This document shows positions 3,383 to 4,817 of a DNA stretch of 5,119 bases, piece after piece. The stretch's first letter is position 1; each line of letters starts with the position of its first letter. The DNA comes from an uncultured Oscillibacter sp. (GTDB lineage Bacteria > Bacillota_A > Clostridia > Oscillospirales > Oscillospiraceae): assembly GCA_948902155.1 (NCBI GenBank), contig CAQVQZ010000153.1, positions 1 to 5,119 on the forward strand, written 5' to 3'. A program made the translations under genes and the position numbers. The notes below the pieces were generated by a model. It did not search any database. It saw nothing but the letters and a program-made list of their open reading frames with translations, and had not been told where the DNA came from.

Positions 3383-3554
3383 AAAGAGGGGACTTCGTCC
3401 CCCCTTTGGATTCCCCCTCACCAGTGATTCGGTCACTGGTGTCGCCGCCCAAGGCGGCTGGGGTAGCGGAATTTTCGTGACGCACATGTCGTCACGAAAA
3501 TGATTTAAACTCTTTTTCCGCCTGTGGCGGAAAAACCGGGAACCGTGGGTTCCC
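3383..3554 (+). repeat. Multi-hairpin intergenic element, copy 1 (after pgk)
   Basis: Five ordered hairpins start 16 nt after the pgk stop: (a) 3383-3407, AAAGAGGGGAC/GTCCCCCCTTT with one A-C mismatch; (b) 3419-3441, CACCAGTGA/TCACTGGTG; (c) 3444-3458, GCCGCC-CAA-GGCGGC; (d) 3471-3501, perfect 12-bp ATTTTCGTGACG/CGTCACGAAAAT with a 7-nt loop; (e) 3513-3535, perfect 10-bp TTTTTCCGCC/GGCGGAAAAA. A sixth (f) lies at 3538-3554, GGGAACC/GGTTCCC. CCCC before (b) can pair with GGGG (3460-3463) after (c), making a three-way junction. A further GAGGGGGC-TTC-GCCCTC hairpin (3366-3382) overlaps the pgk stop and is not found in copy 2. No stem is followed by a U-tract. The same array recurs after tpiA. 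Confidence 0.85.
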
Positions 3555-3684
3555 TGGCCCCTCCCCTGTCTATCTTTGATGGGAAAACGGGCGCTTGGGG
3601 CGCGGCTGTTTTCCCGGAGGGGCGGTTGAGGGGGCGCGTTTCGGCTGTTTTTCGATAAAAGTTCAGAAAAAGCCCCTTTTACCC
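3555..3684. other. Non-coding spacer between element copy 1 and the tpiA promoter
   Basis: I see no gene here. It holds an inverted repeat GGGAAAAC (3581-3588)/GTTTTCCC (3608-3615) with a 19-nt spacer, a direct repeat CGGCTGTTTT (3603-3612 and about 3642-3651), and a short AAAAG-CCC-CTTTT inverted repeat (3668-3680) just upstream of the tpiA -35 box. Confidence 0.6.
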
Positions 3685-3715
3685 TTGACATTTCCCTCTG
3701 ATTCGGCTATATAAT
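3685..3715 (+). promoter_or_regulatory. tpiA promoter
   Basis: TTGACA (3685-3690) is a consensus -35. The -10 is TATATA at 17-nt spacing (3708-3713), overlapping TATAAT at 19-nt spacing (3710-3715). This is the strongest-looking promoter in the window. It gives tpiA, and probably gpmI beyond it, transcription independent of pgk. The leader would be about 60 nt. Confidence 0.8.
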
Positions 3716-3779
3716 AGTTGGTTGCTATTTCGTCAGCTTACCCCACAATTTGAAAAGATATAAAGGAGTTTTGATCATC

Positions 3780-4553
3780 ATGAATCGCAGATACCGCAAG
3801 ACCGTGATTGCCGGCAACTGGAAGATGAACATGACCGCCAGCGAGACCAAGAAGTTTGCCGAGGATATCCGCAAGATCATGCCCCGCGCCAAGTGGTGCG
3901 AAACCCTGATCTGCGTCCCCGCCTGCAACATCTCCACCGCCGCCAAGGCCTTCAAGGACCTGCGCATCTCCGTCGGCGCGGAAAATGTCTATTTCGAGGA
4001 GAAGGGCGCTTACACCGGCGAGGTTTCCGTGGAAATGCTCAAGGACCTGGCCGTCAAGTACGTCATCATCGGCCACAGCGAGCGCCGCCAGTACTTCGGC
4101 GAGACCGACCAGACGGTAAACAAGAAGGTCCACGCCGTCCTCAACGCCGGTATGAACCCCATCATCTGCGTGGGCGAGAGCCTGGAGCAGCGGGAAACCG
4201 GCATCACCAACGAGTGGATCGCCCTGCAGGTGAAGAGCGCCCTCTTCGGCGTGCCCGCCGACAAGCTGCGCCGCTGCATCATCGCCTATGAGCCCATCTG
4301 GGCCATCGGCACCGGCAAGACCGCCACCGCCGAGCAGGCCGGCGAGGTCTGCTCCAACATCCGCGCCACCATCCGTTCCCTGTACGGCGCCCGGGTGGCC
4401 CGGAGCGTCACCATCCAGTACGGCGGGTCCATGAACGCCAAGAACGCCGCCGAGCTGCTGGCCCAGCCCGACATCGACGGCGGACTCATCGGCGGCGCTT
4501 CCCTCAAGCCCGACAAGTTCGTTGAGATCATCAACGCGGCGAATCAGGAATGA
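3780..4553 (+). CDS. tpiA: Triose-phosphate isomerase
   Basis: Interconverts dihydroxyacetone phosphate and glyceraldehyde 3-phosphate in the cytosol. The 257 residues match the family's usual 250-255. Catalytic residues are all in place: Asn13 and Lys15 in AGNWKMN (11-17), His99 in IIGHSERR (96-103), Glu171 in AYEPIWAIGTGKTA (169-182, with flexible loop 6). The phosphate-binding YGGS (214-217) and GGLIGGASL (234-242) are present. I chose ATG 3780 because AAGGAG (3763-3768) lies 11 nt upstream and MNRRYRKTVIAGNWKMN fits the family. A TTG at 3750 in the same frame would place the ribosome binding site inside the gene. It has its own promoter and sits between pgk and gpmI, each side separated by a copy of the multi-hairpin element. 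Confidence 0.98.
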   Translation: MNRRYRKTVIAGNWKMNMTASETKKFAEDIRKIMPRAKWCETLICVPACNISTAAKAFKDLRISVGAENVYFEEKGAYTGEVSVEMLKDLAVKYVIIGHSERRQYFGETDQTVNKKVHAVLNAGMNPIICVGESLEQRETGITNEWIALQVKSALFGVPADKLRRCIIAYEPIWAIGTGKTATAEQAGEVCSNIRATIRSLYGARVARSVTIQYGGSMNAKNAAELLAQPDIDGGLIGGASLKPDKFVEIINAANQE

Positions 4554-4570
4554 CGCGCTGACGCGCGTTT

Positions 4571-4817
4571 CAAGGGGGGACTTTGTCCCCCCTTGAGAAT
4601 CCCCCCTCACCAGTCTGCGGACTGGTGACGCCGCCCAAGGCGGCTGGGGTATCGGTATTTTCCTGACGCCGCAGCGTTAAGAAAACATGCCGGCGGCATG
4701 TTTTCAGCGGAGGCCGCAGCGGCTATGCCGCGAGGAGAGGCACCATCGTGTCGTCAGGAAAATGATTTCAATTATTTCTCCGCCTTTGGCGGAGAAAACC
4801 GGGAACCGGAGGTTCCC
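4571..4817 (+). repeat. Multi-hairpin intergenic element, copy 2 (after tpiA)
   Basis: Same array as after pgk, in the same orientation, starting 17 nt after the tpiA stop: (a) 4571-4595, perfect 11-bp CAAGGGGGGAC/GTCCCCCCTTG; (b) 4608-4627, CACCAGTC/GACTGGTG; (c) 4630-4644, GCCGCC-CAA-GGCGGC; (d) arms 4657-4668 ATTTTCCTGACG and 4752-4763 CGTCAGGAAAAT; (e) 4775-4797, TTTCTCCGCC/GGCGGAGAAA; (f) 4801-4817, GGGAACC/GGTTCCC. The copies share a 23-nt identical block (3443-3465 and 4629-4651) and equal spacing between arms of neighbouring stems. Stems a, b, d and e carry compensated pair changes. The loop of (d) is 83 nt here against 7 nt in copy 1. A TTTTT run at 4825-4829 follows stem f only after CCCTCCC. 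Confidence 0.85.
4669..4751 (+). other. Folded expansion inside stem d of element copy 2
   Basis: The extra DNA contains a perfect 11-bp hairpin GAAAACATGCC-GGC-GGCATGTTTTC (4681-4705) and a 5-bp hairpin GCGGC-TAT-GCCGC (4719-4731). The 9-mer GCCGCAGCG occurs at 4668-4676 and again at 4713-4721, bracketing the first hairpin. It looks like an insertion into the apical loop, or the ancestral loop lost from copy 1. Confidence 0.55.

Follow-up and report, generated by a model that had tools for sequence, protein, structure and literature searches.

The window, by which we mean the whole 5,119-nucleotide stretch of Oscillibacter DNA analysed here, carries two copies of a six-hairpin element. On balance, we read this element as a non-autonomous, palindrome-built mobile DNA of the MITE or REP kind, present in part of one bacterial order and preferring the ends of genes. 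The family is interspersed, patchy and eroding, and its base pairing is kept by compensatory change. Its copies lie in near-strict sense direction, abut stop codons and recur at the same operon joints.

The genes of the window run in the order prs (minus strand), an open reading frame without a family (minus strand), a TrmL-like gene, pgk, tpi and the start of gpmI. The two copies follow pgk and tpi. Scores refer to R1, a covariance model of the a-d core built from 25 copies; the 127.5 bits of copy 1 (over 3381-3505) were obtained with copy 1 itself among those 25.

2087-3367, plus strand: pgk, 5' of copy 1; sub-cut-off match to the PGK portion of a PGK/TPI fusion model
3381-3556, plus strand: element copy 1, 13 nt past the pgk stop codon; six hairpins, a-f
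3383-3407, plus strand: copy 1 hairpin a (fold, alignment pairing)
3419-3441, plus strand: copy 1 hairpin b (fold; 97.3% of alignment cells paired)
3444-3458, plus strand: copy 1 hairpin c (fold, alignment pairing)
3471-3501, plus strand: copy 1 hairpin d, loop CACATGT; the hairpin common to the wider clan, with double-sided changes at 11 of 12 pairs
3513-3535, plus strand: copy 1 hairpin e (alignment pairing, perfect-stem test)
3538-3554, plus strand: copy 1 hairpin f (sequence, fold)
3780-4553, plus strand: tpi, between copies 1 and 2; TIGR00419 above cut-off
4569-4817, plus strand: element copy 2, 15 nt past the tpi stop codon; six hairpins, a-f; R1 79.9 bits
4571-4595, plus strand: copy 2 hairpin a (sequence, fold)
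4608-4627, plus strand: copy 2 hairpin b (sequence, fold)
4630-4644, plus strand: copy 2 hairpin c (sequence, fold)
4657-4763, plus strand: copy 2 hairpin d, enlarged loop between arms at 4657-4668 and 4752-4763 (centroid fold)
4669-4751, plus strand: loop of copy 2 hairpin d, longer than that of copy 1 by about 76 nt; likeness to loci L114 and L122 judged by eye
4775-4797, plus strand: copy 2 hairpin e (sequence, fold)
4801-4817, plus strand: copy 2 hairpin f (sequence, fold)
4905-5119, plus strand: start of gpmI, 3' of copy 2, truncated where the window ends; partial match, below cut-off

The initial annotation had described two multi-hairpin copies with their hairpins in equal order and orientation, and these are seen in the sequence, in the folds and in the copy-to-copy comparison. 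The paired changes it listed from A3383-T3407 to C4571-G4595 (stem a), from G3477-C3495 to C4663-G4757 (stem d) and from T3516-A3532 to C4778-G4794 (stem e) read correctly, as does the A3387/C3403 mismatch in stem a of copy 1, which is G-C in copy 2. The change from G3426-C3434 to C4615-G4620 in stem b is present, with a looser correspondence, as the b loops of the two copies are of unequal length. RNA folding of both stretches gave a z-score of about -7.9, which none of 200 shuffles equalled. The loop of hairpin d measures 83 nt in copy 2 versus 7 nt in copy 1; the loop of copy 2 (window 4669-4751) holds a separate repeat, GCAGCGTTAAG..AACATGCC.., and a similar repeat lies beside copies at L114 and L122. 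A small extra hairpin, GAGGGGGCTTCGCCCTC, was noted at window 3366-3382, between the pgk stop codon and copy 1.

On reading the sequence, no U-run of the kind that marks an intrinsic terminator was found after the hairpins of either window copy, in agreement with the earlier statement that these are not ordinary terminators. A TTGACA/TATAAT-like promoter was noted by eye at about 3685-3715, in the gap from copy 1 to tpi; given this promoter-like sequence, copy 1 may close a transcription unit. An Rfam scan of the window returned four matches, all below gathering. A further scan of 18 loci, including order-level matches, also returned four, of which only a tRNA reached gathering, so that the element matches no Rfam family.

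The family was followed beyond the window through its neighbouring genes and then through the element itself. A PGK scan of species genomes, from which the best 80 of 589 confirmed places were taken, gave its best match at L001, in the metagenome-assembled genome G001 of an uncultured Pseudoflavonifractor; this PGK was 85% identical, the best among those 80 of 589 places. A DNA search of G001 with copy 1 gave no match. When copy 1 was searched as DNA against 400 genomes of the family of G001, matches were obtained in 41 (E<=1e-3), 20 of them at E<1e-10; two candidates were scored per genome in this search, and several of the weaker matches cover one hairpin region alone. Four genomes scored more fully gave 18, 29, 13 and 25 matches (E<=0.1), some of which are pieces of one copy. 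With R1, the 3.58 Mb contig of genome G357 gave 26 matches at E<=0.01 and 21 at E<=1e-6, and eight further genomes gave 28, 21, 14, 22, 14, 20, 11 and 10 matches at E<=1e-6. Element copies thus number 10-28 in each of nine genomes, and the family has the MITE trait of being short, non-coding and present in many interspersed copies. Further copies are thus present in related genomes, and the alternative of a purely local duplication was refuted by these searches.

At the level of the order, R1 matched 33 of 394 genomes (E<=1e-4), mostly as divergent or weak matches, and at the level of the phylum one of 398; in both searches the filters were strict and scoring covered eight candidates for each genome. 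Among the 33, G039 and G157 alone exceeded 100 bits; the rest scored 59 bits or less, many at about 30, and the weak matches were inspected at loci from seven genomes only. By eye, the order-level matches L196-L201 keep the linkers and loop (the c hairpin, GGGTC..GGT and hairpin d) while their stem sequences differ, and their hairpin d loop mostly carries ACATG or ACACG. Plasmid and phage searches with the element gave no match, and viral pattern searches gave 0, 0 and 1 match, the single match lying inside apparent coding sequence.

Base pairing was scored over 3602 cells, with the structure of window copy 1, in a MAFFT alignment (A5) of 80 copies: window copy 1 and 79 others of normal length and stop-proximal place. 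Paired cells made up 85.3% of the total, against 39-53% when the partner was slid by 1-3 columns, and 34 of the 47 base pairs showed change on both sides. The compensatory change reported from the two window copies is thus real and general, and the proposal of a REP/MITE-like interspersed family, with a preserved fold, is supported. Hairpin e formed a perfect stem of at least 8 in 61 of 87 copies versus 5.7% of shuffled sequences; a looser hairpin-e test was uninformative and was superseded by this one.

Covarying base pairs, as looked for in a cis-acting structured RNA, are therefore present, and compensatory change by itself is no proof of RNA function. A structured RNA would also be expected to tolerate G-U and avoid A-C pairs on the transcribed strand, and this was not seen in stems b and d, where the sense strand held 19 G-U and 18 A-C (pair 126/145 left out). 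Stems b, c and d together gave a G-U to A-C ratio of 31:21, and the ratio was 32:49 once pair 126/145 was kept. The sense strand out-folded the antisense strand in only 15 of the 80 copies. Thirteen tRNA genes from the retrieved loci gave 19:0, in a small control for which aragorn favours pairable stems, and the cells of the element are not independent, as its copies are related. With G-U about as frequent as A-C on the sense strand, the sequences point to pairing that is kept at the DNA level or to palindromes perfected during copying. Of the two options in the annotation, selection on a folded form or copying that preserves it, the data suit a copying mechanism no less well than they suit selection on RNA. 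A structured non-coding RNA, also proposed there, is not supported as stated, given the 19:18 ratio in stems b and d and the eroded copies of the nearest relative.

The placement of 123 copies in 20 genomes was examined, comprising 103 copies and 20 of the 21 in a second set (L096 was dropped as the same copy as L195). The sample represents the better-scoring copies, with 18 of the 26 in G357 and part of 140 places in eight genomes. Genes were called by codon usage with self-training, and a rerun seeded with ten in-frame genes gave identical counts. Among the 121 copies that have an upstream gene, 119 lie in the sense direction behind it, the two antisense copies being L224 and L093. The start of the element fell within -8 to +15 nt of the upstream stop codon in 89 of the 119 sense copies; among the remaining 30, a G-run/C-run hairpin no more than 45 nt from the stop was seen in 20, some of these being tandem copies or having another repeat present. 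In 400 kb of G357, a position and strand picked at random between genes would meet a sense upstream gene in 47% of cases and a stop codon that close in 1.9%. In three divergent genomes (G616, G553 and G685), 17 of 18 copies, from 20 matches, were sense to the upstream gene, and seven lay within 5 nt of the stop; one copy (L357) lies behind a gene end that reads like pheS.

The downstream gene was codirectional for 110 of 118 copies and convergent for eight. In the G357 control, 75% of gene ends face a codirectional gene (226 such pairs, against 38 convergent pairs with 76 ends), or 68% when only gaps of at least 60 nt are counted, and the excess among the copies has p of about 1e-5 and 1e-7 over these two controls, which come from one genome. 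Stop-proximal copies followed by a codirectional gene number 82; 51 of them leave at most 140 nt before that gene, and none of these 51 short gaps contains a promoter-like match of 10 of 12. In an NCBIfam check of the called genes, the expected family was found for 10 of 10 upstream and 9 of 10 further proteins, some below cut-off. A gene caller trained on the longest open reading frames was rejected; it placed 53 copies on the same strand and 68 on the opposite one, and called antisense reading frames over pheS and other genes. An explanation by replication strand was likewise set aside: orientation in G357 tracks transcription, and 11 of 18 copies are on the leading strand (by eye).

The sites recur between genomes. 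The upstream genes of 86 copies form 28 groups, each named through one member and each spanning at least two genomes; the upstream gene is pheS, groES or grpE in six genomes each, rplA or argG in five each and argJ in four; tpi was counted in three genomes and pgk in two, to which the window adds one more each. By NCBIfam the joints are pheS|pheT, groES|groEL, grpE|dnaK, rplA|L10, argG|argH, argJ|argB, tpi|gpmI and prs|pth; HU and proS are also named at copy sites, and some of these matches are below cut-off or partial. Same-gene pairs across genomes numbered 115, a count inflated by the shared ancestry of close genomes, against 4-12 expected for random sites drawn from 1500-500 shared genes.

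Copies at a shared joint are hardly more alike than others. In a comparison of 114 of the 123 copies, identity of the b-d core was 0.68-0.70 for the same site in different genomes (90 pairs with the upstream protein below 95%), 0.679 for different sites and 0.731 for different sites within one genome. Eight same-site pairs with the upstream protein at 95% or above had a core identity of 0.81. Between G158 and G213, two same-site pairs were 0.93 and 0.94 alike, and the others only 0.73-0.75. Among 30 tpi loci from relatives, a few of them incomplete at contig ends, R1 matched 8, and at L282, whose TPI is closest to that of the window (97%), both copies are eroded and lack c and one or both arms of d (by eye).

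Several observations concern other repeats at these sites. Lone look-alikes of hairpin a were seen behind tpi in some relatives. The idea that hairpin a, in its exact form, is a resident landing pad was rejected, as 20 of 20 GGGGGAGCNNGCTCCCCC sites in three genomes lay inside R1 matches. Another repeat stands behind pgk at L001:7200-7800, at L002:7160-7370 and in the pgk|tpi gap of L286 and L287 (GGGGCCCC..GCGAAAGCCCAGCGAAGCGGG-like in L001, L002 and L286), and after it the 3' end of pgk (..GCCTGCCTGCTGGACGCCTAA-like) occurs a second time, which looks like a gene end duplicated on insertion. By eye, further repeats split hairpin a or separate a from b at L151, L218, L240, L246, L248 and L250. 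Other repeats lie, by eye, in the loops of a and d, so that insertion in these genomes may favour palindromes.

A distant relative is plainly mobile. Genome G705 (4.0 Mb) holds 12 copies of a relative of about 227 nt at 94-100% identity, which matches R1 at 49-59 bits. In 7 of the 10 copies examined, each flank carries the same terminator-like stem, with a flank score (the better of direct and inverted) of 21-35 versus 10 or less when flanks were swapped; the loops of these stems agree in direct orientation in some copies and inverted in others. Seven of 10 copies lie between convergent genes. G705 has a second structured family, also with a d-like hairpin (L381, L388, L390, L391 and L393), in which the flanking stem is duplicated in four of five copies, and flanking hairpins are duplicated in two of six (L102 and L108) of a group sharing hairpins d-e. 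That d-e-only group comprises L102, L103, L104, L106, L107, L109 and L110, of which L103, L104 and L106 lie directly behind a stop codon (by eye).

The same signs were sought in the family of the window. Among 85 copies, one (L209) reached a target duplication score of 14, the mean being 7.1 versus 7.2 with swapped flanks, and no duplication was seen in the 18 divergent copies of G616, G553 and G685. As for terminal inverted repeats, the left 14 bases matched the reverse complement of the right 14 at a mean of 4.1 positions (shuffled, 5.0) in the 14 testable copies. In G705 these repeats match at 2-5 of 19 positions at a fixed offset (four copies), and at 12 of 15 in L348 when shifted by one base (by eye). 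No copy of greater length was found among the G705 matches, 40 of 80 candidates having been scored, and a pattern scan for an autonomous partner, covering the retrieved loci, found none. In genomes that may be incomplete, Y1_Tnp was found in six of nine carriers (in G357 and G383 as weak partial matches only) and in 4 of 14 non-carriers, and was not found in G158, G359 and G258, which hold 14-22 copies each. A RAYT helper was rejected, as the occurrence of Y1_Tnp does not track the copies. For a helper of the IS1182 kind, considered as a candidate, a literature search gave nothing on point.

The reading of the family as mobile DNA draws on its interspersed and patchy copies, the lack of a G-U preference, the slight likeness of same-site copies, their turnover and the mobility of the clan. 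Against it stand the target duplication, terminal inverted repeats and helper that were not found and the avoidance of convergent gene pairs; sense-only, stop-abutting placement is also more easily explained by a role in the transcript. In such a role, the hairpins behind the stop codon, as an intercistronic or 3'-UTR element, would protect, process or attenuate the mRNA and give unequal expression of operon genes. We regard this as unlikely while keeping it as a serious contender, because strict sense placement (119 of 121 copies, with 89 starting within -8 to +15 nt of the stop and a G-run/C-run hairpin near it for 20 of the remaining 30) is the strongest argument for it. The codirectional downstream genes, the 115 same-gene pairs, the strong covariation and the 51 short gaps free of a promoter-like match argue in the same direction. 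The absence of a sense-strand G-U preference speaks against it, as do the eroded copies at L282, the 22 of 30 relatives' tpi loci without an R1 match (some cut by contig ends) and the missing U-run behind the hairpins of both window copies. That the elements are ancient, inherited in place and homogenised within each genome by recombination, without insertion, appears improbable. While the shared joints of different genomes, the slightly higher likeness within a genome (0.731 versus 0.679) and the two closely alike G158/G213 pairs are consistent with it, the patchy presence among relatives, the low likeness of the other G158/G213 pairs and the duplicated flanks in distant kin, which point to insertion, speak against it. 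A local duplication with chance palindromes and no wider meaning would suit two copies inside 1.5 kb of one gene cluster, and is left with almost no probability by the many copies at unrelated genes elsewhere and by the covariation.

In the reading that we favour, the family of the window would itself spread as DNA. Its hairpins may be kept because folding is required of the DNA, as a single strand or cruciform, or because copying runs through the palindromes. Insertion would be aimed at gene ends or palindromes, and the element, without a protein of its own, would be moved by one encoded elsewhere. An effect on mRNA 3' ends would be a by-product, perhaps kept at some sites. A further idea, which we put forward as speculative and rather doubtful, is that these are mobile palindromes that read gene ends: insertion would be coupled to the stop codon or transcript end, always in sense, supplying interchangeable folded intercistronic modules at recurrent joints and tuning the expression of neighbours.

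By kind, the element is a small interspersed palindromic repeat. REP/BIME elements are intergenic palindromes near gene 3' ends that are moved by RAYTs and carry a tetranucleotide at the palindrome foot. The family of the window likewise consists of intergenic palindromes near gene 3' ends; it differs in its greater length (six hairpins, about 170 nt) and in Y1_Tnp not being found in three carriers. The G705 repeats share their R1 match with the family, and those at L102 and L108 share hairpin d; both differ in sitting inside terminator-like hairpins, a copy of which stands on either flank. The pneumococcal BOX, RUP and SPRITE elements are described in PMC3049150 as parasitic repeats enriched between convergent genes. 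As described there, they resemble the present family in being short, intergenic, strongly folded, patchily spread and present in many copies, whereas the family of the window lies in sense at the stop codon, mostly between codirectional genes, and neither inverted ends nor a target duplication were found in it. An enrichment like theirs was not seen: convergent neighbours occur at 8 of 118 copies, whereas the 400 kb of G357 have them at 76 of 302 gene ends. Like the element, the structured RNA motifs that PMC8040213 describes for the human gut microbiome are conserved folds, obtained from intergenic comparison; a motif in the supplementary list of that paper could be the same family. No description of the family was found in the open literature searched, most subscription papers lying outside that search.

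The reading first drawn from the window is partly supported by these results; the stop-abutting sense placement and the recurrent operon joints are invisible from the window alone. Small parasitic repeats of bacteria, for example those of pneumococci, are enriched where disturbance is least. Here, a family that lies in sense and abuts the stop codon is found in core operons for tRNA synthetase, chaperones, ribosomal proteins and glycolysis, at joints shared across species. This would mean either a mobile element that senses gene ends or a cell that reuses such elements as operon parts, and both can be tested.
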